A DNA stretch of 32,462 bases, taken from Oscillatoriales cyanobacterium. GTDB lineage: Bacteria; Cyanobacteriota; Cyanobacteriia; Cyanobacteriales; Laspinemataceae. Within the stretch, counting starts at the first letter, position 1, and each line of letters starts with the position of its first letter. The notes below the pieces were generated by a model, which was not told where the DNA came from, did not search any database, and saw only the letters and a program-made list of their open reading frames with translations. The DNA is taken from the NCBI GenBank assembly GCA_011390955.1, contig JAABRM010000075.1, forward strand, positions 1 through 32,462, in the 5' to 3' direction. Positions 8,279-32,462 of the stretch are shown here, piece after piece. Both the position numbers and the translations under genes were made by a program.

Positions 8279-8377
8279 TAAGTAACAAGTAATAAGTAAA
8301 AAGTAAAAACTAAAAACTAACAACCAACAACTAAGAACTAACAACCAACAACTAACAACTAACAACTAACAATTAAC
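8279..8377 (+). repeat. A/C-rich heptamer array directly before the 8380 kinase start
   Basis: Degenerate tandem units of about 7 nt; clearest is AACTAAC repeated near 8355-8372, with AACAACC variants upstream and an AAGTAAA-type degenerate start. The mRNA-sense strand is almost free of G and T-runs, so it should be unstructured. It ends 2-3 nt before the ATG. No Shine-Dalgarno sequence is present. Confidence 0.85.
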
Positions 8378-8379
8378 GG

Positions 8380-11300
8380 ATGATCTACAAAATAGAACCA
8401 GAAATAATCACTCTTTTGGTACTAGAAGATTCGGAAACTGCTCGCACTATTTACCGTCGCTATCTTCGATCCCAAAGTGACTTTAATTGCCAGATTCTAG
8501 AGGCAACAACTCTGACCGAAGGTTGGCAAATTTGGCAACAGAATCGCCCCGACCTAGTATTAGTGGATGTAAACTTACCCGACGGCAGCGGGCTGGAATT
8601 TCTAGAGATGATGGGTGCAGATTATCCCGATCGCAACTTACCCGCCATTGTCCTCACCGCGAGGGATGATGAAGCAACCGTAATGCGAGCAATGGAATTG
8701 GGCGCTGCCGACTATTTAATTAAGGAGAATATCACCGCCATTGCCCTAAATATTTCTATCAGAAATCAGTTGCGTTATGCCGCAGCACTCAAACGGGAAA
8801 TAGCCCGATCGCAGCAACAAGAAGCAGCGATCGCCGAAGTTGCCCTACGAATTCGACAATCTCTGGACTTAGACGAAATTTTAACTTGTGCAGTTCGAGA
8901 AGTACGGGAAGTTTTATCCGTAGATCGGGCGGTAATTTATCAATTTAATCGTCATAATAACAGCGGTAAAATAGTGGCTGAGTCGGTGACTTATCCCTGG
9001 CGTTCTTGCCTGGATAGGGAATTAGAAGATAACTGTTTTGAGGATAAATTAGCCTTAGCATACCGAGAGGGCAGAATATTTGTTGCTAATGATATCTATA
9101 CCAGTAATTTAACTCCATGCCATCTACAACTTTTGGCAGAATTTCAAGTCAGGGCTAACATCGCCGTGCCGATTCTGCTGCCCAATACAGAATCGGCACC
9201 TTTGTGGGGTTTATTAATTGTTCATCAATGTAGCAGGTCGCGCAATTGGCAACAGACAAATATTCAGTTACTTCAACGATTATCGGTACAGTTAGCGATC
9301 GCCCTTCAACAGGCAGAACTCTATCAATCCCTGCACCACTTCAACGCTGAATTAGAACAGAAAGTCGCAGACCGCACCCAAGAACTGCGGTTTCTGGCGC
9401 AAACTGCCGAACTGGTTTGTCATATCGGGACGCAAATTCGTTCTTCCCTGGATTTACAGACCATTTTGGATACCACGGTGCGAGAAATTCGCGCCGCTTT
9501 GCAATGCGACCGTGTAATTATTTACCAACTCCGGGATGATTTTACTGGCAGCGTTGTCACTGAATCTATCTTAGAGGGGGGGCGATCGGTCTTGCACAGC
9601 GAAGCGTCAGACCCCTGTATCACCCCGGAATGGATCGAACCCTATCGCCAAGGTCGAATTCGCGTAGTCCGGGATATCTACCAGGAAGCAATGACCATTT
9701 GCCATCAAGAACTGCTGCTAGGCTTTGACATTCGGGCTAAATTGATGGTGCCGATTGTCGTAGAAGAACGACTTTGGGGGCTGATGATTGCCAGCCACCG
9801 CGATCGCCCCCGTGAATGGCAATCTACGGAAATTGAAATGGTGCGGCAATTGTCGATTCAGGTAGCGATCGCGATTAAACAAGCCACCATCTACCAAAAA
9901 GCCCAAGCGGAAATCACCGATCGCCTCCAAGTGGAAACCAACATCAAGCAACTAAACCAGCAACTAGAAAACCGAGTCCAACAACGTACCGCCAAACTCC
10001 GACAACGAGAAGAAGAACTGCGGCACCTCTCCGATCGCTTAGAACTGGCGATTAAATCAGGGGCGATCGCGATCTGGGATTGGGATGTGGTAAATAATAT
10101 CCTCACTTGGGACGACCGGATGTATGAACTCTATGGCATCACAGGGGATGAATTTACCAATGTTTATGAAACCTGGGTCAGTCGCTTGCACCCGGAAGAC
10201 CGAACCTTGGGTCAGAATGCCATTCAGCAAGCCCTCGAAGGAACAAAAGACTACGATTTAGAATTTCGGGCGATTCTGCCGAACGGTCAAACTCGCTATA
10301 TCAAAGCATTCGCCCTAGTAAATCGAAATAGCCAAGGGCAACCGCAACGGATGGTGGGAATTAACTATGATATTACCCAGCAAAAACAGGCAGAGGCAAC
10401 TTTGCGTTCAAGCGAAGCCCACCTGCGAACCGCTCAACGAATTAGCAAGCTGGGGAGTTGGGAATATTATCCAAAAACCGGCCAAGTAACTTGGTCTGAG
10501 GAAACATTCAGAATCTTTGGACTCGACCCAAAAGCCCAAGAACTCACCTTGGAAACCATCACTCAGACGTTCCATCCCAGCGATCGCCTATTGCACGAAC
10601 GCGCCTTTCAGACCGCCATTGCCACCGCTAGTCCCTACAACATGGAACTGAGAGTCTATCGTCCCAATGGCTCCTTAGCTTATATTATGGCCAGAGGGGA
10701 ACCCATCTGCAACGCCGCCGGTATTGTCACCCAACTGGTCGGCACCGTCCAAGACGTAACCGAACGGAAACTGGCGGAAAAACAGCTACAACAAGCCCGT
10801 GATGCCGCCGAATATGCCAACCGAGCCAAAAGTGAATTTTTAGCTTTAATGAGCCACGAAATTCGCACCCCCATGAACGGAGTTTTAGGCTTGACATATT
10901 TAGCACTCAAAACTAACCCCACCCCAGTGCAGCGGGAATATTTAAGCAAGATTCAAAGTTCTGCCCAATCCTTGCTGCAAATTATCAACGATATTCTCGA
11001 TTTTTCCAAAATAGAAGCAGGAAAATTAGAGTTAGAATCAGCGCCATTTGAATTGGATGAAATTCTCAATAATATTAGCAATATTCTAGCCTTAAAAGCA
11101 GTTGAAAAAGGCATAGAATTGATATTTAATATTGGGAAAAATGTGCCAAAATATTTAGTTGGGGATTCCTTGCGTTTATCTCAGGTATTAATCAACTTGA
11201 CCGGCAACGCAGTCAAATTCACCGAAACAGGTAGTGTCGTAGTTTCTGTAGAAACCATCGATCCGGTTCCCCCCTTATTAAGGGTGGATAATTTTCCCTT

Positions 11301-13383
11301 TCAAAGGGGGACTAGGGAGGATTATCCCGCTCCGGTTCCCCCCTTTCAAAGGGGGGCTAGGGGGGATTATCCGGCTAAAACTATCACCCTAAAATTCATG
11401 GTACGGGATACGGGCATTGGCATGAACCCATCGCAAATTAACTCCTTATTTGAAGCCTTCACCCAAGCGGATCCCTCCATCAGTCGCAAATACAGCGGCA
11501 CCGGATTGGGACTAGCCATTTGTCAAAGACTGGTTAAACTCATGGGGGGCAATATTGGGGTAGAAAGCCAACTGAATCGCGGCAGCAATTTTTACTTTGA
11601 AATCCAACTCGGTTATGTTTCTGAATCTCAGGTACAAGAAACAATCCCCACTCCCGACTTGCGGGAGATCAAATCTTTGGTAGTCGATGATAATTCCCAA
11701 GTTCGCGATGTCTTAATTCATGTTTTGGAATCTTTCTCGTTTCGCGTCACTGCCGCCAGTTCTGGGTTGGAAGCATTGGAACTCCTGCGGCGATCGCCAG
11801 AATCCGATCCTTTTGAACTGGTCTTAATTGACTGGTGTATGTCCGATATGGACGGCATCGAAACCAGCCAACAAATCAAAGCCGACCCCAACCTCGCCCA
11901 TATTCCCCATATCCTGATGGTGACAGCCTATCATCGGGCAGATATCTGGGAATTAGCCGCTGCTGCGGGAATTGAGGCTATATTGCCCAAACCCGTTGAC
12001 CGTTCCAGATTATTTGAATCTATTCTGGAAGTGTTTGGCCATCAGACTGCCAATCAATTCAGAAAGTCTAAACCGTCGGTGAAACCGGAAAAACTGAGCC
12101 CGATCAGAGGGGCGCGGATTTTGCTGGTAGAAGATAATGAGGTAAATCAGCAAATTGCCCAAGAACTGCTACAAATTGTGGGATTAAATGTAGAGGTTGC
12201 GCCTAACGGTGTTGTCGCTTTGGCAAAAGTCCAAGGGCAAAATTACGATTTAATTCTGATGGACATTCGGATGCCAGAGATGAATGGTCTAGAGGCAACC
12301 CAACGGATTCGGAGTTTAGCTCAAATAGGCAATCTGGAAACCGAGCGATTTGCTACGGTGCCCATTATTGCTATGACCGCTCATGCCATGAGTGCGGATA
12401 AAGTCAAAAGTCTGGAAGCGGGGATGAATGACCATGTTTCTAAGCCCGTGAACCCCGAAGAGTTATATGCGGTGCTGGTGAAGTGGATTGCCCCCTTGGG
12501 GCAGGGGAGCGGGGAGGTAGGGGAGCCCGCCATCAGCAGAGGTGCAGGAGAGCAGAGGAGCAGAGGAGCCCGCCATCAGCCCGCCATCAGCAGAGGAGCA
12601 GGGGTGCAGGGGAGCAGAGGAGATGAGAAAAAATTCCCCCCTACACCCTACACCCTACACCCTACACCGATGGCGGCCGAAAGCACCCCTGCACCCCTGC
12701 TCCCCAGTCTCCCCGGTCTGAATGTGAATGCAGGCTTATCCCGCATGGGGGGAGATTGGACTGTTTATCAGCGCATCCTGGAAAGGTTTTACTCGATTCA
12801 CCGAGAGTCCGATCGGGAAATTCAAGGGGCGTTAGATCGACAAGATTGGTCGGAGGCGTTTTATCTGGTGCATACCCTGAAAGGTTCTGCGGGGAATATC
12901 GGCGCTGATTCGGTGTTTCAAGCAGCGGGGGATTTGGAGTCAGATTTGCAACAGGCAACGGCGAACAATTCACCACCGATTAATCCACCGATTGATTTAG
13001 ACTTGTTAGCCGCCAAAAGTCAGGCTTTAGCCCGGTGTCTTCAGCAAGTGAGGACGAGCATCTCGGCGATGATTTCGGGTAGAGACGAAGAGGGAACCGC
13101 CCTTAAAGAACCGGAAGCGCAGGGTAGGGGCGATTCGCGATTCGCCCCTACCGTAGAGAAGGAAATCGATCGCCCACAGGTGATTCTTTTGGTGGCGGAA
13201 ATCACCAGTCTGCTGGAAACGGATTTGGTAGAAGCGATCGCCCGTTTAGAAACCCTCAAGGCGCAGGTGACAGGGACTCCTTTTCAAGCTAAATTACAGG
13301 CAGTGGCAGAGTGCTTAATCGAGTTTGATACCGATCGCGCACAAACTTTGCTCGACGAGATTGGCAAAAGCTTAGAAAATTAA
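8380..13383 (+). CDS. Multidomain hybrid histidine kinase with two cyanobacteriochrome-type GAF domains
   Basis: A 1667-residue sensor kinase and phosphorelay protein. Domains: REC 10-130 (Asp63, Lys115); GAF1 152-315 with DNCF (Cys219) and CH (Cys247-His248); GAF2 343-505 with DPCI (Cys413) and CH (Cys441-His442); PAS 545-670; PAS 675-800; HisKA with SHEIRTP (His826); HATPase (Asn943, DTGIG at about 1010, GTGLGLAI at about 1040); REC 1098-1220 (Asp1151, Lys1204); REC 1243-1375 (Asp1295, Lys1355); HPt about 1447-1560 with HTLKGSAGN (His1498). The paired cysteines are those of DXCF cyanobacteriochromes, which bind a bilin and respond to violet-to-green light. GAF2 has Ile in place of Phe. Three repeat insertions interrupt it in frame: residues 962-999 inside the HATPase domain, 1374-1447 between REC3 and HPt, and about 1580-1590. 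First gene of a kinase operon; no membrane segment, so cytoplasmic. The ATG follows a repeat array with no ribosome site. Confidence 0.93.
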   Translation: MIYKIEPEIITLLVLEDSETARTIYRRYLRSQSDFNCQILEATTLTEGWQIWQQNRPDLVLVDVNLPDGSGLEFLEMMGADYPDRNLPAIVLTARDDEATVMRAMELGAADYLIKENITAIALNISIRNQLRYAAALKREIARSQQQEAAIAEVALRIRQSLDLDEILTCAVREVREVLSVDRAVIYQFNRHNNSGKIVAESVTYPWRSCLDRELEDNCFEDKLALAYREGRIFVANDIYTSNLTPCHLQLLAEFQVRANIAVPILLPNTESAPLWGLLIVHQCSRSRNWQQTNIQLLQRLSVQLAIALQQAELYQSLHHFNAELEQKVADRTQELRFLAQTAELVCHIGTQIRSSLDLQTILDTTVREIRAALQCDRVIIYQLRDDFTGSVVTESILEGGRSVLHSEASDPCITPEWIEPYRQGRIRVVRDIYQEAMTICHQELLLGFDIRAKLMVPIVVEERLWGLMIASHRDRPREWQSTEIEMVRQLSIQVAIAIKQATIYQKAQAEITDRLQVETNIKQLNQQLENRVQQRTAKLRQREEELRHLSDRLELAIKSGAIAIWDWDVVNNILTWDDRMYELYGITGDEFTNVYETWVSRLHPEDRTLGQNAIQQALEGTKDYDLEFRAILPNGQTRYIKAFALVNRNSQGQPQRMVGINYDITQQKQAEATLRSSEAHLRTAQRISKLGSWEYYPKTGQVTWSEETFRIFGLDPKAQELTLETITQTFHPSDRLLHERAFQTAIATASPYNMELRVYRPNGSLAYIMARGEPICNAAGIVTQLVGTVQDVTERKLAEKQLQQARDAAEYANRAKSEFLALMSHEIRTPMNGVLGLTYLALKTNPTPVQREYLSKIQSSAQSLLQIINDILDFSKIEAGKLELESAPFELDEILNNISNILALKAVEKGIELIFNIGKNVPKYLVGDSLRLSQVLINLTGNAVKFTETGSVVVSVETIDPVPPLLRVDNFPFQRGTREDYPAPVPPFQRGARGDYPAKTITLKFMVRDTGIGMNPSQINSLFEAFTQADPSISRKYSGTGLGLAICQRLVKLMGGNIGVESQLNRGSNFYFEIQLGYVSESQVQETIPTPDLREIKSLVVDDNSQVRDVLIHVLESFSFRVTAASSGLEALELLRRSPESDPFELVLIDWCMSDMDGIETSQQIKADPNLAHIPHILMVTAYHRADIWELAAAAGIEAILPKPVDRSRLFESILEVFGHQTANQFRKSKPSVKPEKLSPIRGARILLVEDNEVNQQIAQELLQIVGLNVEVAPNGVVALAKVQGQNYDLILMDIRMPEMNGLEATQRIRSLAQIGNLETERFATVPIIAMTAHAMSADKVKSLEAGMNDHVSKPVNPEELYAVLVKWIAPLGQGSGEVGEPAISRGAGEQRSRGARHQPAISRGAGVQGSRGDEKKFPPTPYTLHPTPMAAESTPAPLLPSLPGLNVNAGLSRMGGDWTVYQRILERFYSIHRESDREIQGALDRQDWSEAFYLVHTLKGSAGNIGADSVFQAAGDLESDLQQATANNSPPINPPIDLDLLAAKSQALARCLQQVRTSISAMISGRDEEGTALKEPEAQGRGDSRFAPTVEKEIDRPQVILLVAEITSLLETDLVEAIARLETLKAQVTGTPFQAKLQAVAECLIEFDTDRAQTLLDEIGKSLEN
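11263..11376 (+). repeat. Two tandem copies of a C-run/G-run palindromic element inside the HATPase domain
   Basis: Copy 1 (11263-11331) and copy 2 (11332-11376) both start CCGGTTCCCCCC. They contain CCCTTTCAAAGGG palindromes, an (A/C)TAGGG(A/G)GG run and end GATTATCC(C/G)GCT. They encode residues about 962-999, including PVPPFQRGARGDYPA, between a strand ending VVVSVETI and the resumed kinase sequence ITLKFMVRDTGIGM. A related palindrome lies in intergenic DNA at 26522-26541. The frame is kept. Confidence 0.85.
12499..12720 (+). repeat. In-frame repeat linker: GCAGAGGA octamers and TACACCC heptamers
   Basis: Between REC3 and HPt of the kinase the DNA is made of imperfect GCAGAGGA/GGGGAGCA units interrupted by CCCGCCATCAG copies, then about four TACACCC units (12640-12668), then a C-rich CACCCCTGC stretch. 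The peptide is a hydrophilic linker (ISRGAGEQRSRGARHQ, then PTPYTLHPTP). Confidence 0.88.
13123..13152 (+). repeat. Palindromic element within the kinase C-terminus
   Basis: GGTAGGGGCGA (13123-13133) and its exact inverse (13142-13152) around TTCGCGAT. It encodes GRGDSRFAPT in a weakly conserved region after the HPt domain. Related GTAGGGGCGAA sequence occurs near 24069. Confidence 0.8.
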
Positions 13384-13389
13384 TAATTA

Positions 13390-13459
13390 ACAATTGATAA
13401 TTGATAATTATTAATTAACAATTATCAATTCCTCTCGTTCCCAGACGTAGCCTGGGAAC
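13390..13459 (+). repeat. AT-rich heptamers and hairpin after the first kinase gene
   Basis: ATTGATA units with an inverted partner (AATTGATAATTG and CAATTATCAATT) follow the stop codon within 10 nt. Then comes a perfect hairpin, GTTCCCAG (13437-13444), a 7-nt loop and CTGGGAAC (13452-13459). It may slow or end transcription or stabilise the message, but lacks a T-run. Confidence 0.65.
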
Positions 13460-13464
13460 TAGGG

Positions 13465-13593
13465 AAACTAACAAACAACAACCAACAACCAACAAACAAC
13501 AAACAACAACCAACAATCAACAACCAACAACCAACAAACAACAACCAACAATCAACAACCAACAACCAACAAACAACGAACAACAATCAATCA
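13465..13593 (+). repeat. A/C-rich heptamer array before the second kinase gene
   Basis: About 18 tandem 7-nt units of CAACCAA, CAAACAA and CAATCAA type, in the mRNA sense of the downstream gene and ending 3 nt before its GTG start. Confidence 0.9.
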
Positions 13594-13595
13594 AA

Positions 13596-15245
13596 GTGAC
13601 AGATTCTCAACCGATTAAACCGAAAATTTTAATTGTCGATGATAGTCCAGATAACTTACAAGTGCTGATGCAGCTTTTGAAAGAGGACTATGCGATCGTC
13701 GCCGCGACTACCGGGGAAAAGGCTCTGCAACTGGCAGTGAGAGCCCCTGGCCCGGATTTGATTATTCTCGATGTGGTGATGCCGGTGATGGACGGCTATG
13801 AAGTTTGCACTCGCTTAAAGGCGAATCCCGATACCCAGGGGATTCCTGTATTGTTCGTCACCGCTTTGAGTGAGGTGGGCAATGAAACCAGGGGGTTTGA
13901 GTTAGGGGCGATCGACTATATTACTAAGCCGTTTAGTCCCCCAGTGGTTAAAGCCCGGATTAAAAGTCACTTAACCATTCAGCGGCTCAATCAGGAGTTG
14001 CAGCAAAAAAACAGCGAACTAGCCCGCGCTACCCGGATGAAAGATGAGTTTCTGGCGAATATGAGCCACGAACTCCGCACCCCCCTGAATGCGATTTTGG
14101 GCATGGTGGAGGGGCTGCAAGAGGGGGTGTTTGGGGATGTCAATCAGGGACAAGTTAAGGCATTACAAACTATTGAACGCAGCGGCTCTCATTTGTTGGC
14201 TTTAATTAACGATATTCTGGATGTGGCGAAAATCGAAGCCGGTCAACTGGTGTTGGACATTGCCCCGACGGCGATCGCGCCTTTGTGCCAATCCAGTCTG
14301 GCATTTATTAAGCAGCAAGCTTATCAAAAACAAATCCAGTTAGAGACGAAACTGCCACCGCATTTACCAGAGTTGGCGATCGACGAGCGGCGCATCCGTC
14401 AAGTGTTAATTAATTTACTGAATAATGCGGTTAAATTTACCCCGGAAGGAGGACGCATTGCTTTAGAGGTTAGTTTGTCACCAGCCCAGGGTTACCAGAT
14501 GCTAAGAATTGCGGTGACTGATACGGGAATTGGGATTGCCCCAGAGAATGCCCGGAAGTTGTTTCAACCGTTTATTCAAATTGATAGTGCTCTGAATCGG
14601 CAATATACGGGGACGGGGCTGGGACTGGCTTTGGTGAAGCGCATTGTGGAACTGCACGGGGGGCAAGTGGGACTCACTAGCGAGGTGGGGGCGGGCAGTT
14701 GCTTCACCGTTGACTTGCCTTTTGTCAGCAGAGGAGCAGGGGAGCAGGGGAGCCCGCCGTCGGCAGAGGAGCAGAGGAGCAGAGGAGCAGAGGAGCAGAG
14801 GAGCAGAGGAGCCCGCCATCAGAAAAATTCTCCCCCGCTCCCCCGCTCCCCCGTTCCCCAAGAATCCCCGTTAATCTTGTTGGCTGAGGATAATGAGGCT
14901 AATATTAGTACGATTTCCAGTTATTTGAGGGCAAAAGGCTATCGCTTGATTTTGGCCAAAAACGGACATGAGGCGATCGCGACTGCGATGTCCGCACAGC
15001 CGGATTTGATTCTGATGGATATTCAAATGCCGGGGATGGATGGACTGGAAGCAATGAAACAAATTCGCCGCGATCGCACTTTGGTAGATGTGCCAATTGT
15101 TGCCCTGACTGCTTTGGCAATGGCAGGCGATCGGGAAAAGTGTTTGGCGGCTGGTGCCAATGATTACCTAAGTAAGCCCGTGAAACTGAAACAACTGACG
15201 AATATTATTCAACAACTATTGGCTGTCCAGAAAAACAAGCAATGA
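13596..15245 (+). CDS. Hybrid sensor histidine kinase (REC-HisKA-HATPase-REC)
   Basis: A 549-residue cytoplasmic two-component protein with no sensor domain other than receivers. REC1 is residues 9-125, with DD15-16, Asp59 as phosphate acceptor and Lys111. A short coiled linker leads to HisKA with NMSHELRTP (His158). The HATPase domain has Asn277, DTGIGIAP (309) and GTGLGLAL (339). REC2 is 426-545 with Asp475 and Lys527. Residues about 378-425 are a repeat-derived linker (octamer array 14727-14862). The N-terminal receiver suggests it is driven by phosphoryl transfer, plausibly from the HPt of the upstream kinase; that is inference. The start is GTG at 13596, directly after the A/C repeat array and with no ribosome site. 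The gene overlaps the next one by ATGA. Confidence 0.93.
   Translation: MTDSQPIKPKILIVDDSPDNLQVLMQLLKEDYAIVAATTGEKALQLAVRAPGPDLIILDVVMPVMDGYEVCTRLKANPDTQGIPVLFVTALSEVGNETRGFELGAIDYITKPFSPPVVKARIKSHLTIQRLNQELQQKNSELARATRMKDEFLANMSHELRTPLNAILGMVEGLQEGVFGDVNQGQVKALQTIERSGSHLLALINDILDVAKIEAGQLVLDIAPTAIAPLCQSSLAFIKQQAYQKQIQLETKLPPHLPELAIDERRIRQVLINLLNNAVKFTPEGGRIALEVSLSPAQGYQMLRIAVTDTGIGIAPENARKLFQPFIQIDSALNRQYTGTGLGLALVKRIVELHGGQVGLTSEVGAGSCFTVDLPFVSRGAGEQGSPPSAEEQRSRGAEEQRSRGARHQKNSPPLPRSPVPQESPLILLAEDNEANISTISSYLRAKGYRLILAKNGHEAIATAMSAQPDLILMDIQMPGMDGLEAMKQIRRDRTLVDVPIVALTALAMAGDREKCLAAGANDYLSKPVKLKQLTNIIQQLLAVQKNKQ
14727..14862 (+). repeat. GCAGAGGA octamer array inside the second kinase
   Basis: Tandem GCAGAGGA units, with a CCCGCCGTCGG interruption and a C-rich CCCCGCTC tail. 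The array is translated as EEQRSRGA octapeptides at the boundary between the HATPase and receiver domains. Confidence 0.9.
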
Positions 15246-16339: not shown

Positions 16340-16341
16340 AT

Positions 16342-16369
16342 GTCGGGTGGGCAATATTGCCCACCCGAC
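16342..16369 (+). repeat. Perfect 28-nt palindrome after the kinase operon
   Basis: Two 14-nt inverse halves meet at CAATATTG; each outer half contains GTCGGGTGGG. It lies 2 nt after the kinase stop codon, so it can act as a hairpin at the 3' end of that message. It belongs to the same family as the copy at 17294-17316. Confidence 0.85.
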
Positions 16370-16400
16370 GCAATATTTCTAAGGAGGCATTAAAAAAGTA

Positions 16401-16616
16401 ATGACTGAACGAACTGATGAAGATAAGATGATTGAACGATTGACTATTCATAAAAATCTGATTGGATGGATCATTAAACAACTTGAAGCAGAAGGAATTC
16501 CATGTAAAAAAACTACAGGTAATGATAGCAATGGAGATATCCTGTATGTGAATCCAGAAGACGAACCCAAAGTCAAAGCAATTATTCGCAAAATTCAGCA
16601 ACAGTATAACCCTTAA
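16401..16616 (+). CDS. Small protein of unknown function (71 residues)
   Basis: Not recognised. The protein starts MTERTDEDKMIERLTIHKNL, is charged and predicted soluble, with a helix-rich N-terminal half and a VNPEDEPKVKAIIRKIQQQ helix at the end. AGGAGG (16382-16387) lies 13 nt before the ATG, a little far but usable. It is the first of three small genes in a row (10-20 nt or less between them), starting 61 bp after the kinase operon, so it could be co-transcribed with the kinases or read from its own start. Confidence 0.65.
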   Translation: MTERTDEDKMIERLTIHKNLIGWIIKQLEAEGIPCKKTTGNDSNGDILYVNPEDEPKVKAIIRKIQQQYNP

Positions 16617-16635
16617 TTGTAGTTCGGTGAAATTC

Positions 16636-17217: not shown

Positions 17218-17261
17218 TACCATTTACAAAAAATTATGCAACAATAAGTATTGATATTGTA

Positions 17262-17316: not shown

Positions 17317-17348
17317 GAAGAATGTTAGAGACTTATCGATCGAACCTC

Positions 17349-20606: not shown

Positions 20607-20630
20607 TTTTTTTCATCATATTCAGGTAAT

Positions 20631-20811
20631 TTTGTTATTTGTTGTTGGTTGTTGGTTGTTGTTTGTTGTTGGTTGATTGTTGTTTGTTGTTGGTTGATTG
20701 TTGCTTGTTATTTGTTGCTTGTTATTTGTTATTAGCATCAACAACCACCAACGAACAACGAACAACGAACAACAAACAACCAACAACCAACAACCAACAA
20801 CCAACAACCAA
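20631..20811. repeat. Inverted pair of heptamer arrays
   Basis: On the plus strand 20631-20732 is TTGTTGG/TTGTTTG type and 20738-20811 is CAACCAA/CGAACAA type, with the switch at ATTAGCATCA. In the minus-strand transcript the G/T arm directly follows the stop codon at 20812 and the A/C arm precedes the start at 20606. The two arms can pair. Confidence 0.9.
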
Positions 20812-23800
20812 CTAATTAAATTGAGGATTAATTTCGGCAGGTGACAAAGGCGTATTATCCGGGGTTGGCGGTTCTTCTTCCTCCTCAGTCGCACCGCCTC
20901 CCGGCGTACCGGCAGCCCCAGGTTGACCGGGAACCTCCAGAGTTCCCGCTGCCCCCGCTGCCCCCTGCGCCCCAGACGCCCCAGGAGTACCAGCCGCCCC
21001 AGGAGTACCAGCCGCCCCAGACGCACCCGGCGCCCCAGCCGCCCCAGTCGCCCCAGAAGTCCCAGGCGACCCAGTGACAATAGGTGGCGGTGGCGGTGGG
21101 GGTGCTAAGGTTTGAATAGCCACGGTGCGGGTCAGTTCTTGACCTTGAGCATTGGTGACTTTCAAGGTAATGGTTTCTTGACCTGGGTCTGGGGTGACGG
21201 GATAGGTGACAGAACCCTGGGGCGATACGCTGCCCGGGGCTGGCAAAATCTCCACTTTCATATCTCTCCCGCCAGTAACTTGCCAGGATAAAGTCAATAC
21301 AATGGGTTTTGTTTTAGGCTGTGTTTCAAAAATATATTTCGGTGCCGCTGGTTGGCCATTAATATTAAATGCCACAATATTAATCGGCACGGGTTCCGGT
21401 AGAATTTTAATGATTTCTGTTTTTTTAATGGTAATCCCTTCTTGGGGGGCTTGGTTTTTCGGTAAAACAATTAATTCAAAAATATAGTCATCCGGTTGAG
21501 TTGCTCCCGTGGGTACATTTTTACATACAAGCTGCGGGCCACTGAAGAGGCAATAGTCTTTTAAAGCCGCCGGAATTCCTTGGTTGAAATCATACCGCTG
21601 TAAGGGACTATTTACCCGACCATCAGGCGATCGCGCCATAACTCCGATCTCTTTAATTTGACTCCCCCGATCCACTTGCCAATTCAGCAGAATACTACTC
21701 ACTCTACTGGCTGCTGGTAATTGATTCGTGGCCTGATTCGTGGCCAAAGTTGCCGCTTTTAACTTTACTTCTTCATACACCAGTTGCAGAGAAGCAAATT
21801 CGACAATTTTCGGCTGAGGAATGGCTTTAATTTGAATGGCATTGGTTTTAATCACGGCGGTAGGTGAGCCATCCCCAATGGTGGGAATTACTTGCAATTC
21901 AAACATATATTGCCCCGGTTCCTTAGCGTCCGTGGGCACATTTTCACAAATCAGAATCGTGCTATCCAGATTTTTCTGGCAATAGCGCTCTAATTCAGCG
22001 GACATCCCATCAATAAATTCATAGTTTTTTTGACTTTGAATGATGCCTTCTTGGTTTAAGGCCATTAAGCGCAATTGTTTAATTTGATTGGGATGATTTA
22101 AGCGCCAATTTAATAATATCCTATCCCCTGGACTTTGTGGGGAACCTTGTAAAGAACTTGGGCCAGAACTTTGGCCAGAACTTTGACCAGAAATTTGGCC
22201 AGTTCCGGGAATATTAGCCGGAACTGCTAATAAAGCCCTGGGTTGACTTCCTCCTTGTTGATAAATAGGTTGGCTAGATTCCACTTGCACCAATTGGGGC
22301 ACGGGAATGGGTTGAATTCGCACCGAAGTAGTTCTCAGGGTAATCGGTTCTACTGCTTTTCGGCCTTTTTTTGGCATCACAGTCATTTCAAAAATATAGT
22401 CCCCAGATTTCCGGGCATTTGTCCAGACATTTTGACAAATCAGTTGAGGTTCTGGGACACAAAAATCTTGGAGTTCTTTGGGCAGATTTTTTTGACTCAA
22501 ATCATAAACAACTGGGCCACTTAATACCACTCCATCTGGTGACATTCCCGTAATTTTGAGGGATTGAATTTTTTCCGGATTTTCGATGCGCCAATTTAAC
22601 CGAATCGCATCGTTATTAACTTCTTGATAGTTAATCGGTTCGGGGGAAAATTCAATTACTTCTGGTTTTTTTGGTGGTTTGGTGACTAACCAAAAGATGA
22701 AATAAATCAGGGCGGCTAAACTACCCGTTAAGAGGAAAACTAAAAGTAAAAATTGCCACCAAGGACGCGGCTCCCACATCAAAGTCCCTTGAAAATGATC
22801 GGTAATCAAGGGCAACTTTTGGGTATCTTTGAGGTCAACCGCAAAGTTGAGCATTCGCCCATAAAAAGGTCGGCGTCCTTTGGTGGGTTTTACCTGAATT
22901 CCGGCCAGGGCTGAACTGCCGGGAGACAGCCGCACTTTTTCCGGGGCTACCGTGTAAGTGCAGATGTTATCTTCATCGGCATCTTTAGCCTCAATTTCAA
23001 TTTCTCTGACGGTGTTGCCGGAATTTTGAAATCGCAGTTCAAACAATCCCGCCTGATGTTTGACTTTGCTCACCAAGGTGACAAAATCTACATTAATTAG
23101 GTGAAATTCGGCGATTTCCAGGTACAGGACATCAAGTAATACCAGATCGGGATTATTTTCTGAGTAAAGCCGTACTGTTGGGGAGTACATTCCCGCCCAA
23201 GCGGTCTTATGTGGACTTAAAAATAATAAGATTTCTCCCTTGTCCCCTGGGTTGAGTTCTAGTCCTTGGGTGGCGGTAATAATTCCGGCAAGGGGTAATC
23301 CTTCCGGGTAGATGACGCGAAACCATTTCGGGTCTAAGTCCGGACAAGTGAGGCGAAAGCGATCCACACGGTCGGATCGGTTGTGAACGGTGACATTTAA
23401 CTCCAGTTGTTCTCCCGGTTGCAGCATGGCCGGTTGCAGAGAACTGGTGGAGGGTTGTAGGGTGAAGGTGGCATCTGTGGCGGTGCGGGCTTCCTCCACA
23501 AAGGGCATGACTTGCAGTTTGGCTGGCTGATAAATCGGGGTATTTTCCGGGTAATGCTGTTGGGCATCGATTACCAGCAGATAGTCGTAAGTGTCGGGAA
23601 TGGCGTTGTCCGGGACTTTAATTTTTAAGACTACTTCACTGGACTGTCCCGGGGTTAAGGCGACATATTCGTGAGGAGAGACGCACCACTGACGGACGGG
23701 CTGGGATCTCTCATCAATATAGATATCAATCAGGGCGCTAATGGGACCCTGATTGGTGATGGTGATGCTGAGTTTCAGACCGTCTTCGTCTCCAGCGATC

Positions 23801-23937
23801 GCGGTCGCAAGTCCAGAGGGATTTCGGATAATTCCGAGGGGACTGGCGACAGAATGACTCGCAGAATTACCCAAACGGCTATTTGTGCTAAAGCCATTCA
23901 TCTCCCCCGGAGGGGCACTCAAGGGTTGAATGGTCAT
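20812..23937 (-). CDS. Membrane protein with Ig-like domains, Cys-paired modules and collagen-like tail
   Basis: 1041 residues, not a named family. The start at 23937 is chosen because AGGAG lies 7 nt upstream; the frame stays open further up only through repeats. Residues about 40-390 look like three Ig-type or COG1470-like beta-domains (GLKLSITITNQGPISALIDI; QLELNVTVHNRSDRVDRFRL; LFELRFQNSGNTVREIEI). A single membrane helix is at 394-417. After it come three related modules (about 427-545, 603-705, 745-845), each with LNW then a cysteine pair (Cys493/501, 653/664, 796/805) and an (Y/P)-(I/M)FE strand. A fourth beta-domain (860-945) and a proline run follow, then a collagen-like Gly-X-Y stretch (957-1015, Ala/Thr/Pro/Ser rich) and an acidic tail. 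The cysteine pairs suggest the C-terminal half is outside the cytoplasm, though Lys-rich flanking residues leave topology unsettled. It is downstream of the WD40 gene with a similar N-terminal plan. Confidence 0.82.
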   Translation of the reverse strand: MTIQPLSAPPGEMNGFSTNSRLGNSASHSVASPLGIIRNPSGLATAIAGDEDGLKLSITITNQGPISALIDIYIDERSQPVRQWCVSPHEYVALTPGQSSEVVLKIKVPDNAIPDTYDYLLVIDAQQHYPENTPIYQPAKLQVMPFVEEARTATDATFTLQPSTSSLQPAMLQPGEQLELNVTVHNRSDRVDRFRLTCPDLDPKWFRVIYPEGLPLAGIITATQGLELNPGDKGEILLFLSPHKTAWAGMYSPTVRLYSENNPDLVLLDVLYLEIAEFHLINVDFVTLVSKVKHQAGLFELRFQNSGNTVREIEIEAKDADEDNICTYTVAPEKVRLSPGSSALAGIQVKPTKGRRPFYGRMLNFAVDLKDTQKLPLITDHFQGTLMWEPRPWWQFLLLVFLLTGSLAALIYFIFWLVTKPPKKPEVIEFSPEPINYQEVNNDAIRLNWRIENPEKIQSLKITGMSPDGVVLSGPVVYDLSQKNLPKELQDFCVPEPQLICQNVWTNARKSGDYIFEMTVMPKKGRKAVEPITLRTTSVRIQPIPVPQLVQVESSQPIYQQGGSQPRALLAVPANIPGTGQISGQSSGQSSGPSSLQGSPQSPGDRILLNWRLNHPNQIKQLRLMALNQEGIIQSQKNYEFIDGMSAELERYCQKNLDSTILICENVPTDAKEPGQYMFELQVIPTIGDGSPTAVIKTNAIQIKAIPQPKIVEFASLQLVYEEVKLKAATLATNQATNQLPAASRVSSILLNWQVDRGSQIKEIGVMARSPDGRVNSPLQRYDFNQGIPAALKDYCLFSGPQLVCKNVPTGATQPDDYIFELIVLPKNQAPQEGITIKKTEIIKILPEPVPINIVAFNINGQPAAPKYIFETQPKTKPIVLTLSWQVTGGRDMKVEILPAPGSVSPQGSVTYPVTPDPGQETITLKVTNAQGQELTRTVAIQTLAPPPPPPPIVTGSPGTSGATGAAGAPGASGAAGTPGAAGTPGASGAQGAAGAAGTLEVPGQPGAAGTPGGGATEEEEEPPTPDNTPLSPAEINPQFN

Positions 23938-23955
23938 GGATCTCTCCTTATATAT

Positions 23956-24055
23956 TGTGGTTGTTGGTTGTTGGTTGTTGGTTGTTGGTTGGGGTGTGGG
24001 GTGTGGGGCGGAGGGGCGGAGGGGCGGAGGGGCGGAGGGGCGGAGGGGCAGGGGA
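23956..24055 (-). repeat. Heptamer array followed by GGGGCGGA octamers
   Basis: Plus-strand 23956-23995 is TTGGTTG heptamers, A/C type in the sense of the 23937 gene. 24005-24052 is about six GGGGCGGA octamers. Both are stop-free on both strands, which is why reading frames run on upstream of the real start. Confidence 0.88.
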
Positions 24056-24240
24056 GAAGTTAAAAGTCGTAGGGGCGAATGGCCATATAGCCTGACGGCA
24101 TGGGCTCCGCAAGGACGCCCGTACAAGTGAAAAGTTATGCATAAGTATGACTATTCACTATTCACTATTCACTATTCACTCTCCCCTCTGCTCCTCTGCT
24201 CCTCTGCTCCTCTGCTCCCCCGCACAAGAGATCCCCCTAC
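24056..24240. other. Repeat-filled remainder of the intergenic region before the 23937 gene
   Basis: The 303-bp gap 23938-24240 holds no gene. After the arrays at 23956-24055 there is an imperfect palindrome with outer arms GTAGGGGCG (24069-24077) and CGCCCGTAC (24115-24123). Next come four ACTATTC heptamers (24150-24180) and about five CTCCTCTG octamers (24181-24220; GCAGAGGA on the minus strand), and then the 3' end of the WD40 gene at 24241. Confidence 0.75.
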
Positions 24241-26445: not shown

Positions 26446-26455
26446 TTTTTACACT

Positions 26456-26655
26456 TTGTTGGTTGTTGGTTGTTATTTGTTGGTTGTTGGTTGTTATTTG
26501 TTGGTTGTTGGTTGTTGGTTGCCCCCCCCTTGAAGGGGGGGTTGGGGGGGTGTTGTTGGTTGTTGGTGGTTGGTGGTTGACTGCTGACAAACAACAATCA
26601 ACAAAGAACAAAGAACTAAGAACAAACAACAATCAACAAAGAACAAAGAACAAAA
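26456..26655. repeat. Inverted pair of heptamer arrays with an embedded C/G palindrome
   Basis: Plus-strand 26456-26580 is TTGGTTG/TTATTTG type and 26587-26655 is CAACAAT/CAAAGAA type. A palindrome of eight C, TTGAA and seven G (26522-26541) interrupts the first arm and resembles the element inside the 8380 kinase. In the minus-strand transcript the G/T arm follows the stop at 26662 and the A/C arm precedes the start at 26445. Confidence 0.88.
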
Positions 26656-26661
26656 TTGCGA

Positions 26662-28599: not shown

Positions 28600-28610
28600 A
28601 TTTTTAGTCT

Positions 28611-28762
28611 TTTGTTGTTTGTTGGTTGTTGTTTGTTCTTAGTTGTTCGTTGTTTGTTGTTTGTTGGTGGTTGGTTGCTTGTTGTTGGTTGGTGGTTGTT
28701 TGGATTTCACCCGAATAACCAACAACAAAGAACAAACAACAAAGAACAAACAACCAACAACA
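28611..28762. repeat. Inverted pair of heptamer arrays
   Basis: Plus-strand 28611-28702 is TTGTTTG/TTGTTGG type; 28715-28762 is CAACAAA/GAACAAA type and touches the stop codon at 28763. In the minus-strand message the order is stop, G/T arm, short spacer (TTATTCGGGTGAAATCCA region), A/C arm, start at 28599. Confidence 0.9.
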
Positions 28763-30748
28763 TTAAACTCCAAAGCGTGCGGTCATAAGTTGGCGAATCC
28801 AACTTAAAGGATTTTCACTAAAACTCCGGTCATTTTCATCCAGTAACCCCCACTTTTTCAGCATTTCTTTGCGTTCATCTAATTCCGCTTTATGGTTATT
28901 GAGTTCAGCAGCAATCTGGTCAGCCATTTCTTTGTAAGTTTGTAAGAGTTTTTGTAACCCATAGCGATCGACAACAAATAAAATCGTTGCTTCGGTAGTG
29001 CGGACTGTAGCTGTCCGGGGAATCCCTAGCAGTAAAGACAGTTCGCCAAAAAACGCTCCCGCTGACAAGTTGGTTAAAAACTTATTAATTTTTTCTACAT
29101 AAATTTCTACCGACCCAGCCAGAATAATATAAAAAGCATCTCCTGGTTCATCTTCTCGACAAATATATTCTCCCTCCTCTAAAGTCGTCTTATATCCAAT
29201 GTTAATCAATTCTTGAATGTCATCGCTAGAAAAATTACGGAAAAACTTGACATTTTTCAATAAGTCTGGCAGCTTTAAATGCTGATATTCTTCATTAGTC
29301 GATCTAATTTTTTGAGATTGTTTTAACAGCCGATTTACAAATGCAAATTGTCCTAAATTGATTAACATCGTAGCTTTTTTCTTCGGATCTTTCTCGCGGC
29401 TTAACTCCTCCATTTGTTTTTTCAGCCGTTGTTTTCTGGCGTAAATTTTATCAGCCATTTCTTGAAACACTCGCGCTAGTTTTCCCAACTCATCTTGACG
29501 TTGGCTGACCGTCGCTAAGGTTTCTGGATTTAAATCTTCCGCTTCAATCTCTGCCGCTGCTTGGTTCAAAATTTCCAGAGGTTTGACAATCCATCGGGCA
29601 GTCAGAATACCCAAGAAAATCGCAAATCCTAATACCCCCAAACCGAGGAACAGAGTCATCCGCAAATTGCTATAGACATTTCCCATAAAATCTGCTTCAG
29701 GAATCACCACAATAATGTTCCACTTTAAATGGGGATGGTCGAGTTCTTTCACCTGAATAAACTGGCGATCGCCCTCAATATTTAATTCAAATTGCTTCTG
29801 GTTTGTGACATCTTGCATCATGCTATTTAATTCTTTCATCGTTGATTGGATCAGTGGATCCGTGCTATCAACCGCATGAAGTCTTTGGGTGCCCTCTGGG
29901 GTCGAGATTGACAAAAGTTCCGCCGATGAACTAGCCACCAATTTTCCAGTTTCTTCTTCGATGATAAACGCTTTTCCGTTCTGACTAATCTTTAAATCAC
30001 TGAGAAAATTACTAAGTTCTCGGAGAGTAATTTCAATTCCCAGTACCCCAAATAATGAACCATTGGCATCATAGATGGGGATGACAGGGTTAATTCTTAA
30101 ACTGGTTCGATCGTAAGACGAGGGATAAATTTCACTCCAGGTCAATCCTCCCTCTGCTTTCGCTGCTTGATACCAAGGGCGTTGTCGAGGGTCGTACTCT
30201 TCTCGGATAACTTCCTTAATTCTCTGTCCTTGGTTATTTAGTTGGTATGTAATTCTGGGAGAATTACCCTGGTTTTTCAGTTTCAAAAAAATGTTTTCAT
30301 TATTTTGATTTTCAACCCCGATAAATCCTCCTTGCTCATTGGCAAACATAATATACTTAACAGATTCTAATAGTTTTTCACTTTGAGCTTGGACGGGGGG
30401 ATTGTTTGGGGAATTGACAAAATCATTGTTATCCAAGTTACTTTGTGCTTCAAATACAGAATCTTGCACAATAATCCGCCAGAAATAAGTGGCTGAATTT
30501 TCAAAGTCATTTAATTTTAAATTGTCATTATAAATAGCAATTTGATTCAGTTGATGGCTCATTTCTGCCGGATCCAAATAGGCCATTACCTGATTATGGA
30601 TATGTTCGGTGACTTGCCAACTCAGTTTAGCAATGAGTTCGTGAACGGTTTTCTTGGCTGAAACATAAGATATCCAGCCAATTAAACCCATTGCTAGACT
30701 AATCTGTAACACCAGAATTGTTGGTAATACTTTGCGGATGGAAGCCAT
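28763..30748 (-). CDS. Cache-HAMP membrane sensor with intact cyclic-nucleotide-binding domain (copy 2)
   Basis: 661 residues with the same plan as its neighbour: helix 8-30, double-Cache-type external domain with YDPRQRPWYQAA (185-196), helix 364-386, HAMP about 385-440, coiled linker, cNMP-binding domain about 505-610 and the same short tail (AELDERKEMLKKWGLLDEND). Its phosphate cassette FFGELSLLLGIPRTATV keeps Arg578 (CGG), so it may bind cAMP or cGMP on the cytoplasmic side. The insert at about 100-125 is longer than in the paralogue and rich in Asn and Gln. There is no output enzyme domain, so the output is presumably by protein contact. The start at 30748 has no ribosome site and an A/C-sense array just upstream. 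It is read after the 453-residue gene, which ends at 30920. Confidence 0.9.
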   Translation of the reverse strand: MASIRKVLPTILVLQISLAMGLIGWISYVSAKKTVHELIAKLSWQVTEHIHNQVMAYLDPAEMSHQLNQIAIYNDNLKLNDFENSATYFWRIIVQDSVFEAQSNLDNNDFVNSPNNPPVQAQSEKLLESVKYIMFANEQGGFIGVENQNNENIFLKLKNQGNSPRITYQLNNQGQRIKEVIREEYDPRQRPWYQAAKAEGGLTWSEIYPSSYDRTSLRINPVIPIYDANGSLFGVLGIEITLRELSNFLSDLKISQNGKAFIIEEETGKLVASSSAELLSISTPEGTQRLHAVDSTDPLIQSTMKELNSMMQDVTNQKQFELNIEGDRQFIQVKELDHPHLKWNIIVVIPEADFMGNVYSNLRMTLFLGLGVLGFAIFLGILTARWIVKPLEILNQAAAEIEAEDLNPETLATVSQRQDELGKLARVFQEMADKIYARKQRLKKQMEELSREKDPKKKATMLINLGQFAFVNRLLKQSQKIRSTNEEYQHLKLPDLLKNVKFFRNFSSDDIQELINIGYKTTLEEGEYICREDEPGDAFYIILAGSVEIYVEKINKFLTNLSAGAFFGELSLLLGIPRTATVRTTEATILFVVDRYGLQKLLQTYKEMADQIAAELNNHKAELDERKEMLKKWGLLDENDRSFSENPLSWIRQLMTARFGV

Positions 30749-30749
30749 A

Positions 30750-30942
30750 ATTTTGTTGGTTGGTTGTTGTTGGTTGTTTGTTCTTTGTTGTTTGTTGGTG
30801 GTTGGGGTGTAATTGATAATTGATAATTGATAATTGATAATTGATAATTGATAATTTTATTTAATTGTCAATTGTCAATTATCAATTGTTAATTTTATTT
30901 AATTGTCAATTGTCAATTGTCAATTATCAATTATCAATTGTT
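30750..30942. repeat. Heptamer arrays: G/T type, then TTGATAA and TTGTCAA types
   Basis: Plus-strand 30750-30806 is TTGGTTG/TTGTTTG type. 30811-30942 is a run of TTGATAA units followed by TTGTCAA and ATTATCA units, which are inverse to the first run and can form long AT-rich stems. The far end overlaps the last codons of the 30920 gene and supplies its stop codon. Confidence 0.88.
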
Positions 30943-32281
30943 CATAGGTAATTTGCCGACGCCGCCACGCGTAATGCAAGATGTTAATGCCCATTTCTTG
31001 AGCGGTGCGGATGGTTTCTCTGGAGACAGAATACTGAGAATCTAGTCCACAAGCGGATAATAAATTACCAATGACAATGATTATTCCGCCGCCCACCATA
31101 ACGGAAATCGGGTTATGGTCAATTGCGGGCAGTTCAGAAAATAAAAAGGGCTGAGTCCGCAGAGGATGTGGTTGGGGAAATTGATCGATCGCTTTTAAGG
31201 GAGTACCCAATTGCTTGGCAAAGTCTTCAAAGGCAATTGATAATTGGTGAATTTCTTTTTCTAGTTCTTGATTAACGGCTCGGAGTTCGTTACTGATATC
31301 TTCTTGGAATTTCTGTAAGTCGGCGGCTTCTAAAGAGCCTAGACTACCCAGGGCTTCTTGTAATTGTTTTTTGACCGCGATTAGGTCTTCGATTTTGGTG
31401 CCTTTAATGGCGGCTTCTATGAATAAGACGCTGCCGGAGTTTAAATAATTTTTCAGGCTGGCGAGTTGTTGAGCTTTGAGAGGACGTGATTCTTTATATT
31501 GGAAATAAATTAGGTCATAATTAAACTCTTTTTGTGTCTCTTCTTCCGGATCTAATTGTAAGCTGACTTGACCAATTTCTTCAGCCCCTTGTAAGGCAGG
31601 ATATAAGGATTCGACGGCATAAAGCAGGTAGGAGAAATCCTTTAGCTGTTGTTGTAAGTTCGGATTGTTGTCGGTGACGACCCCAACTCGGACGATCCCC
31701 TGCGATCGCGATCGCGCTTTTTGCCGATAGCGCAAATCTAATTGATTCAATTCTGGGTAAAAGACATCAGTGGGATTGGAAATTTTCACCTCTCCAGGAG
31801 TCAACTGAATTCGGCAAATTTCCACTTCCAAATCCGTGGGGGGACTATTCCGTTCATCAATTCTAAAAGTTTCCGTGACAAAATCGCTATTACTGTCCGT
31901 TCCTTGGAGTTGATTTGGGTCTACATATCTCACCGTTAAATAAACGGTCATCGGTTGCTGTTTCGCTTCTGAAGTAATTCTAAACGAAATCGGTTCATTC
32001 ACCACAATTACATTGCCAAATAAGTCAATGGCAATTCCCGGTTGAATCTTCACCCAACGGCGATCGCGATATTGTTTAGCTACTTCTGGGGGCGGTTCAA
32101 TGGCATAAACACCTAAATCGGAAACAATCCCCGGTTGGTTCAGGGATTGATAGTGAATATTTTGGCGAATTCGATGGTATTCATGGGCCATTTGCCATCG
32201 CGCACTATTAATCAGCATCCCATCACTGACTTGAATGCGGGTTAATGGTTTGATATTCGGAGGTGGCCAATCTTTACTCAT
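30920..32281 (-). CDS. Two-part protein: baseplate-like N-terminal half, possible DUF4159-like C-terminal half
   Basis: 453 residues, no signal peptide. Residues about 10-170 are beta-rich and include WVKIQPGIAIDLFGNVIVV (76-94), a style of sequence found in phage-tail or injection-system baseplate proteins; this is a resemblance, not an assignment. Residues about 195-440 resemble DUF4159, a ThuA/glutaminase-like alpha/beta fold (FNYDLIYFQYKESRP, then QQLASLKNYLNSGSVLFIEA), with a coiled-coil insertion at about 300-350 (LRAVNQELEKEIHQLSIAFE). The hydrophobic run VMVGGGIIIVIGNLLSACGL (394-413) is probably a buried strand and helix. The last residues, EQLIIDN and the stop, are encoded by TTGATAA repeats. 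The ATG at 32281 has no ribosome site and is preceded by an A/C-sense array. It is the first gene in the window of the minus-strand group; more may lie past the right edge. Confidence 0.75.
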   Translation of the reverse strand: MSKDWPPPNIKPLTRIQVSDGMLINSARWQMAHEYHRIRQNIHYQSLNQPGIVSDLGVYAIEPPPEVAKQYRDRRWVKIQPGIAIDLFGNVIVVNEPISFRITSEAKQQPMTVYLTVRYVDPNQLQGTDSNSDFVTETFRIDERNSPPTDLEVEICRIQLTPGEVKISNPTDVFYPELNQLDLRYRQKARSRSQGIVRVGVVTDNNPNLQQQLKDFSYLLYAVESLYPALQGAEEIGQVSLQLDPEEETQKEFNYDLIYFQYKESRPLKAQQLASLKNYLNSGSVLFIEAAIKGTKIEDLIAVKKQLQEALGSLGSLEAADLQKFQEDISNELRAVNQELEKEIHQLSIAFEDFAKQLGTPLKAIDQFPQPHPLRTQPFLFSELPAIDHNPISVMVGGGIIIVIGNLLSACGLDSQYSVSRETIRTAQEMGINILHYAWRRRQITYEQLIIDN

Positions 32282-32288
32282 AATTTAT

Positions 32289-32462
32289 GTTAACTGTTGT
32301 TTGTTGTTTGTTGTTTGTTGTTTGTTGTTTGTTGTTTGTTGTTTGTTGTTTGTTGTTTGTTGTTGGTTGTTTGTTGGTCGAATGTCATTCCCGCGAATGC
32401 GGGAATCCACTCTTATGGCATTGTTGGTGGTTGGTTGTTGTTTGTTGTTTGTTGTTGGTTGT
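32289..32462. repeat. G/T-strand heptamer arrays with an ATTCCCGC palindrome
   Basis: 32289-32375 holds about 12 nearly perfect TTGTTTG units (A/C type in the sense of the 32281 gene). 32387-32406 is a perfect hairpin, ATTCCCGC, loop GAAT, GCGGGAAT. 32424-32462 resumes TTGTTGG/TTGTTTG units to the window edge. No gene is visible in this stretch. Confidence 0.9.

Follow-up and report, generated by a model that had tools for sequence, protein, structure and literature searches.

Eight genes in the stretch of cyanobacterial DNA analysed here (32,462 nucleotides of contig JAABRM010000075.1, hereafter the window) begin behind A/C-rich arrays of tandem heptamers. The locus raises the question of whether these arrays are leaders recruited for translation without a Shine-Dalgarno (SD) site, as an earlier note on this DNA had proposed, or whether the starts are one side of a wider arrangement. 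The latter is the case: several families of heptamers and octamers fill the intergenic spacers under a two-sided gene-edge rule, by which the G-bearing, usually G/T, strand reads 5' to 3' away from the gene, within about 50 nt of stop codons and about 150 nt of start codons. The rule holds at both edges of genes, start and stop, and in every class of spacer (tandem, convergent and divergent), independently of quadruplex tracts and of pairing between the two arrays (arms) of a spacer, and it would yield mRNAs with A/C-rich leaders and G/U-rich trailers.

Tandem arrays were detected with the program TRF, and those of the window were also read directly. Heptamer arrays adjoin all eight starts (8380, 13596, 20606, 23937, 26445, 28599, 30748 and 32281), lying 2-35 nt upstream. 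The mRNA strand is the A/C strand at all eight (a coin-toss chance of 0.4%), and an SD-like site is present only at 23937 (AAGGAGAG), the other seven starts having none. The fixed polarity ascribed to these arrays is a property of the start side, but three of the same spacers (20607-20811, 26446-26661 and 28600-28762) hold a second array of opposite polarity near the stop of the upstream gene, in whose sense it is G/T (Table 1); “sense” here denotes the strand of the adjoining gene's mRNA. A milder form of the two-sided pattern, made of keto-balanced units, is seen at 30810-30941, where ATCAATT (C-type) units lie towards the 30748 start and a mixture of AATTGAT (G-bearing) and AATTGAC (balanced) units lies towards the stop of the 30920-32281 gene.

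Within a 113-contig draft genome (G000) of 7,119,540 bases, the window is contig C110. A sample of 2,579,377 bases of this genome (36%; 103 contigs plus the window, with 10,430 N) was analysed. Since the sampled contigs are mostly represented by their first 20 kb each, the sample is not random. Genes were called, with no use of annotation, by our own hexamer caller trained on long open reading frames (ORFs), giving 1936 genes at 75% coding; in the window it recovered the main genes, putting the 4392 gene at 4446, 7990 at 7912 and 19282 at 19075, and omitting 6228-6797. In the sample, TRF found 767 arrays with a period of 7 or a multiple of it, and 105 with a period of 8. Of the 767, 643 lie between called genes, and the polarity counts set aside the 57 that are mostly inside genes and the 67 at piece ends with no gene on one side. 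Classified by keto skew on the plus strand, the intergenic period-7 arrays comprise 209 of A/C type, 191 of G/T type and 243 that are keto-neutral and were counted apart. With a 7-nt period, head-to-tail arrangement, many loci and a mostly intergenic location, the arrays are short tandemly repeated heptamers, a kind of repeat that in cyanobacteria often goes by the name STRR. The commonest units are AACAACC, AATTATC and AAACAAC, whose other strand carries GG at most; units with a G-tract are a minority, the largest group being ACACCCT (46 of 613 period-7 arrays). Genome-wide, one A/C 20-mer pattern has 510 + 406 overlapping matches (the reversed pattern is the same repeat in another register, and so is no control).

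Polarity at gene edges is close to complete. Among 1837 genes, those with an array within 15 nt of the edge have it A/C-sense at starts by 45:1 and G/T-sense at stops by 134:9, and the corresponding figures are 27:1 and 78:3 when only the 788 genes of at least 900 nt are taken, or 44:1 and 129:7 when arrays rather than genes are counted. The start-side strand bias anticipated in the earlier note is thus real genome-wide, and the stop side is nearly as strict (134/143 against 45/46) and three times as common. Within 50 nt the counts per gene are 72:4 at starts and 157:15 at stops, the G strand being antisense before starts and sense after stops, as in the published heptamers of Rehm et al. discussed below. 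By distance, the start-side arrays stand at 26:2 at 16-50 nt, 42:9 at 51-150 nt and 20:19 beyond, and the stop-side arrays at 25:3 at 16-50 nt. In genes free of arrays, the first 10 nt after stops show a faint bias (20% G vs 18% C), and the sequence before starts has a mild excess of A and a slight deficit of G.

The same order is seen when whole spacers are considered. Among 254 spacers with keto-skewed arrays, 83 hold A/C only, 71 G/T only, 98 G/T followed by A/C, and 2 the reverse, the two-armed order being kept in tandem (63:2), convergent (25:0) and divergent (10:0) spacers. If gene calls are disregarded, adjacent opposite arms at most 150 nt apart read GT-AC in 96 cases and AC-GT in 2, and the order inverts for arms more than 400 nt apart (89 AC-GT vs 15 GT-AC), as expected because genes lie between them. 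In 313 of 400 arrays it is the 5' end of the G/T strand, not the 3' end, that lies closer to a gene, and spacers with a single type of array obey at 0-15 nt by 25:1 at starts and 43:6 at stops. The share of spacers of at least 60 nt that hold arrays is 40/289 for divergent, 155/967 for tandem and 54/274 for convergent gene pairs. A fixed 15-mer, GGGTAGGGATTCTTT, also recurs, non-tandemly and with the same polarity, since G/T arms contain the 15-mer itself and an A/C arm has its complement (C18:18705-18958, C46:61977-62238, C42:31752-31910, C5:204436-204730 and C40 piece 63148-63432).

Some arrays extend into the genes themselves. Among 139 genes flanked by a G/T-sense array, 26 have their stop codon within the array, and 25 of these 26 stops are TAG or TGA. 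It thus seems that arrays have shortened genes and provided them with new stops. In the sample as a whole, stop-codon choice beside arrays shows no overall difference (p=0.34).

Are the start-side arrays nevertheless selected as ribosome-loading leaders that do not depend on an SD site? The 45 A/C-sense genes among the 46 with an array at most 15 nt from the start are what such leaders would show, as is the scarcity of SD sites, defined as any four-base run of AGGAGGT that ends 3-13 nt before the start, in these genes (4/46). A translational role has also been suggested for the TAACTGA repeats of Beggiatoaceae (MacGregor 2015, PMC4679880), and the orthologue of the 30748 gene in a relative, Planktothricoides sp. 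SR001, carries GAGGG, with no A/C array, at the place of the window's SD-less A/C array. However, an array this close is found at 46 of 1861 usable starts (2.5%), and SD sites are depleted only where the array occupies their place: they occur in 11/31 genes with an array at 16-50 nt and in 29/83 at 51-200 nt (together 40/114), compared with 551 of the 1701 array-free genes (32%). SD sites are thus no rarer behind arrays at a distance, and 68% of array-free genes have none. The depletion probably arises because the array lies on the SD site, and the missing SD beside arrays is then largely an effect of occupancy in a genome where most genes have no clear site anyway. The claim that array-free genes of the window do have a ribosome site was selective. 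It is correct for 3651, 4392, 16401 and 16843, but 15242 has neither array nor SD, and the GGAGG noted at 6135 precedes an ATT codon, the ATG ORF beginning at 6228.

Recruitment also leaves unaccounted for the nearly as strict rule at stops (134:9), and since convergent spacers contain no start codon and are nonetheless ordered 25:0, translation initiation cannot be the whole cause. Moreover, of the 73 arrays no more than 50 nt from a start, 38 have one of the other type in the same spacer. We thus regard recruitment as improbable. A permissive, unstructured leader as a by-product is possible, and the GAGGG site of SR001 in place of the 30748 array shows one orthologous start that fits it.

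To see what property of the repeat predicts its orientation, all heptamer and octamer arrays no farther than 50 nt from an edge were taken together (105 arrays at starts, 254 at stops). Sense-strand G is lower than C in 89 of the 105 and higher in 213 of the 254. At starts the difference between G and C (G-C) is the best single predictor, with a log-loss of 0.294 against 0.337 for start-codon content, and in general G-C predicts polarity better than stop-codon or T-A content. The keto-balanced family AATTATC also obeys the rule within 100 nt (35:7 at stops, 8:1 at starts).

It is conceivable that orientation is mere codon bookkeeping, set only by the avoidance of stray TTG or GTG before genes and the keeping of spare stops after them. 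Start codons are indeed fewer in sense than in antisense in 83 of the 105 start-side arrays; at stops, stop codons are more numerous in the sense strand than in the antisense in 128 of 254 arrays, with the opposite true of 68; and G/T strands carry 0.29 stops per 7 nt at stop edges, against 0.22 at start edges (p=0.048). Yet where start-codon content is level, orientation continues to track G (10:2 among 13 start-side and 19:6 among 27 stop-side arrays), G wins where stop-codon content conflicts with it (20/22 at stops, 6/6 at starts), and the main unit, TTGTTGG, is stop-free in all frames. The spare-stop model is accordingly weak, and codon bookkeeping as a whole has, in our estimate, little probability. 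The AGAGGAGC octamer, which has G and no start or stop codon in either orientation, stands at 2:1 at starts and 7:3 at stops, too few to decide.

Selection of the G/T and A/C arms as pairs, forming stem-loops in RNA or DNA that end or protect transcripts, would be another source of two-sided order. The arms of three window spacers were examined by folding, and strong pairing is predicted in all three: -85.7 kcal/mol (z -8.5) for the spacer at 20606, -64.5 (z -5.5) at 26445 and -51.7 (z -6.0) at 28599. In two of them (20606 and 28599) some 35-40 nt beside the start stay unpaired. The statement that the A/C leaders cannot fold applies to the lone array before 13596, but not to at least these three genes, in which much of the A/C array would pair with the upstream G/T arm if the two are co-transcribed. 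Close inverted pairs are also on record in two Xanthomonas species, 70 in one and 75 in the other (Rehm 2015, PMC4692102). Against selected hairpin or terminator pairs, however, the arms are not matched within spacers: complementarity is no higher within a spacer than across spacers (0.574 vs 0.578, permutation p=0.64, n=100), nor is the sharing of 7-mers (0.262 vs 0.275, p=0.74, n=100). Pairing does not set order, yet the order is 98:2, and 154 of the 254 array spacers hold a single type only. Hairpin selection or fold-back copying was thus rejected as the main cause, and paired selection is very unlikely as an account of the arrays. Exact GT-gap-AC junction patterns, which are palindromic and too strict, matched only 2 to 4 times on each strand of the genus's three genomes and were uninformative.

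A combination of neutral repeat expansion with a strand-specific filter on transcripts, tolerant of G-poor leaders and of G-bearing trailers, is the mechanism that we infer from the sequences, with about an even chance of being right. Arrays would arise and expand neutrally through slippage and recombination, and the filter would remove or prevent wrong-way arrays near gene edges. Before genes, G-bearing structured leaders with stray TTG or GTG starts would be bad for initiation; after genes, A/C-rich trailers would be disfavoured, the candidate causes being weaker transcript ending or antisense effects. A/C leaders would be no recruited ribosome-loading device, but tolerated, unstructured sequence that replaces the SD site on overrunning it.

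Several results weigh against this transcript filter. A filter on leaders alone would leave stops random, which they are not. The sign reverses more than 50 nt from the nearest stop (17:29 at 51-150 nt, then 10:17), perhaps because the far arm of the spacer is met there. Of ten tRNA genes in the sample, two have arrays within 300 nt, and in both the nearest array is G-outward on the 3' side (one of the two has a second, farther arm that is G-inward), which hints, from a tiny number (2/2), that translation is not needed. G may also not be the whole determinant: at stops start-codon content has a log-loss of 0.374 against 0.380 for G-C and weighs more in the joint fit, and among the 39 arrays at stops with equal G and C, 24 still have more start codons in sense and 9 have fewer. 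AATTGAC shows no polarity (3:4 at stops), octamers stand at 3:3 at starts and a weak 14:5 at stops, and taken as a class, keto-neutral heptamers show a weaker polarity (16:8 at starts, 48:20 at stops). Lastly, a mechanism at the DNA level predicts the same signs.

The main rival of the transcript filter is such a DNA-level process, which would act on DNA ends within spacers and lay down or keep arrays so that each gene is capped with its G strand outward. After breaks, for instance, 3' ends might be lengthened by G-bearing repeats, or exonucleases might be halted short of a gene by Chi-like G/T tracts; the analogy is with Chi sites and the polarity of telomeres, known from other organisms. Such a process would explain why the same rule holds at starts, stops and in all classes of spacer, why several unrelated units obey it, with G-C predicting better than any other single measure at starts and almost as well as the leading one at stops, why the arms are independent of each other, and why arrays reach up to and into stop codons. 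The same polarity with other units in Xanthomonas and Nostoc (PMC4692102) is consistent with it as well. However, no enzyme or template for such a process came to light, although no search aimed at one was made, and in single-type spacers more than 50 nt from the nearest edge the rule is moderate at starts (32:12) and is not followed at stops (13:21). Across 158 arrays of at least 70 nt, the 5' third of the G/T strand, mostly gene-proximal, is slightly more regular than the 3' third (0.862 vs 0.839, p=0.04), the reverse of what simple 3'-end growth predicts. Growth at the 3' end of the G strand was rejected on this gradient, which is small and of the wrong sign. We consider a process on DNA ends unlikely.

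Comparison with relatives indicates turnover of the units. Planktothricoides sp. SR001 is the only named relative returned by the protein scan (74% identity in the best segment of the 28763-30748 protein). Its orthologous spacers are shorter than those of the window (75, 56, 117, 112 and 125 nt vs 171, 163, 216, 303 and 205 nt) and have different units (AATAACC, AATAACAA and AACCACC, the last at the place of the window array in the orthologue of the 32281 gene). Judged by eye, an array is visible before four of the six orthologous SR001 starts compared, all A/C-sense and made of other units. The 30920-32281 gene of the window ends within an AATTGAT array (30920-30945), its last codons and TGA being array sequence, and the SR001 orthologue ends earlier with its own TAA. 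In 80 kb of a congener (G002), 33 orthologous spacers have an array call in 8 cases in G000, 7 in G002 and 6 in both, some of the calls being weak long-period matches. Some islands have conserved flanks and changed content, and in the spacer between genes 93 and 94 of contig C42 both arms kept their polarity while the copy number changed. The A/C 20-mer has 916 overlapping matches in G000, 144 and 168 in the other two of three genomes of the genus, and is absent or rare in the other 26 genomes searched (three with 1, 2 and 16), suggesting that A/C heptamers have expanded in this genus only, with G000 far ahead, perhaps in a recent burst.

Table 1. Repeat arrays of the window.
Feature	Coordinates	Strand	Evidence and remarks
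A/C-sense heptamer array (TAACAAC), before start 8380	8283..8377	+	TRF, sequence
A/C-sense heptamer array (AACCAAC/AACAAAC), before GTG start 13596	13466..13590	+	TRF, sequence; array itself unfolded
A/C-sense array, before start 20606	20642..20730	-	TRF, sequence
G/T-sense array abutting stop of 20812-23937 gene, opposite polarity	20739..20812	-	TRF, sequence; pairs with 20642-20730
A/C-sense array upstream of SD site of gene starting at 23937	23958..23991	-	TRF, sequence
C-rich octamer array (CCGCCCCT in sense), start side of spacer before 23937	24005..24049	-	TRF
Arrays of G-bearing sense units, heptamer (GAATAGT) and octamer (AGCAGAGG), close to stop of 24241-26445 gene	24150..24218	-	TRF, SR001 comparison
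A/C-sense array, before start 26445	26456..26521	-	TRF, sequence
G/T-sense array after stop of 26662-28599 gene	26587..26654	-	TRF; pairs with A/C arm
A/C-sense array, before start 28599	28611..28700	-	TRF, sequence
G/T-sense array abutting stop of 28763-30748 gene	28717..28762	-	TRF, folding
A/C-sense array, before start 30748	30753..30805	-	TRF, SR001 comparison
AATTATC/AATTGAC-family arrays between 30748 start and stop of 30920-32281 gene	30810..30941	-	TRF, sequence
A/C-sense array, before start 32281	32295..32376	-	TRF, sequence
Second A/C-sense array farther upstream of 32281, truncated by contig end	32421..32462	-	TRF

The genes behind the arrays are ordinary and varied. They encode histidine kinases (8380 and 13596), a pentapeptide repeat protein (20606), a WD40 repeat protein (26445), proteins with Cache, HAMP and cNMP-binding domains (28599 and 30748) and a DUF4159 protein (32281). 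For the remaining gene, whose start is at 23937, all Pfam matches are sub-threshold. This last gene (20812-23937) has a collagen-like repeat region at 20945-21104 with periods of 9, 18 and 36 nt, and its match to Pfam Collagen is just under the cut-off. The 3651 gene is a PsaA/PsaB-family gene at 1381-3651. Octamer arrays of the AGCAGAGG and CCCCTGCT types also occur inside coding sequence (12535-12719, 14727-14859 and 19103-19277): two kinase genes, 8380 and 13596, contain them, as does the N-terminal part of the 17426-19282 ORF, which means that these octamers are either translated or shift the gene ends. Two palindromes accompany the arrays: ATTCCCGCATTCGCGGGAAT at 32377-32420, between two A/C arrays, with a similar palindrome in a G002 spacer, and a C-run/G-run element (CCCCCCCTTCAAGGGGGGGG) at 26522-26555, which breaks an A/C array and recurs in other spacers of the genome.

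A single law for unrelated heptamer arrays, under which the G-bearing strand in cyanobacteria and, by published data, in Xanthomonas runs outward from every gene edge, is in our view unlikely. If true, it would be blind to the unit, to quadruplex potential and to gene orientation. It would then speak less for a function of any one repeat than for a common, undescribed process on DNA ends or transcripts at gene borders, by which genes are capped in a telomere-like or Chi-like manner. Whether or not such a law exists, the polarity published for quadruplex repeats extends to repeats without G-tracts and is thereby separated from quadruplexes, and the suggested translation leader becomes half of a genome-wide rule that lies beyond any model based on start codons only. 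The question is thereby narrowed to selection on transcript ends versus a process on DNA ends, with the caution that “no Shine-Dalgarno” beside such arrays is largely a matter of occupancy.

The closest known system is that of Rehm et al. (2015, PMC4692102), who describe intergenic heptamers GGGAATC in Xanthomonas and GGGGA(C/T)T in Nostoc sp. PCC 7120, with the G strand antisense within 50 bp upstream of ORFs and sense within 50 bp of stops, and nearest its 5' neighbour ORF whatever the orientation of that ORF. The G000 arrays share this intergenic location and two-sided polarity. The published units form quadruplexes in vitro, their function being left open, and carry a GGG or GGGG tract, whereas the G000 arrays do not have a G3-G4 tract in every unit, the commonest units (TTGTTGG, TTTGTTG and AATTGAT) having the same polarity without it. 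Close convergent inverted pairs, reported for the two Xanthomonas species, are few in Nostoc, whereas 100 of 254 array spacers in G000 hold both types; and arrays are under-represented between divergent ORFs in that study, G000 having them in 40 of 289 such spacers. Tandem heptanucleotides are also cited there for Calothrix sp. PCC 7601 and other cyanobacteria, and resemble the present arrays in period and host group, with no polarity rule quoted for them in those passages.

The TAACTGA direct repeats described by MacGregor (2015, PMC4679880) in Beggiatoaceae, some Cyanobacteria and Bacteroidetes overlie the SD region just before starts in one orientation, with SD sites rare there, and in this they are like the start-side arrays of G000; in Microcystis the orientations are mixed in a sample of 24 sets. 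They differ in having 2-6 copies of one unit in the main species, whereas G000 often has at least 10 copies, many units and a strong stop-side rule, and TAACTGA is not among the 40 commonest period-7 units of the G000 sample. The literature matches listed include no paper on A/C-rich heptamers with stop-side polarity. Judged by these two sources (PMC4692102, PMC4679880), the start-side pattern and the two-sided one both belong to known kinds; the present genome adds that units without G-tracts obey, that the order is near-complete in convergent and divergent spacers, and that the arms are unmatched.

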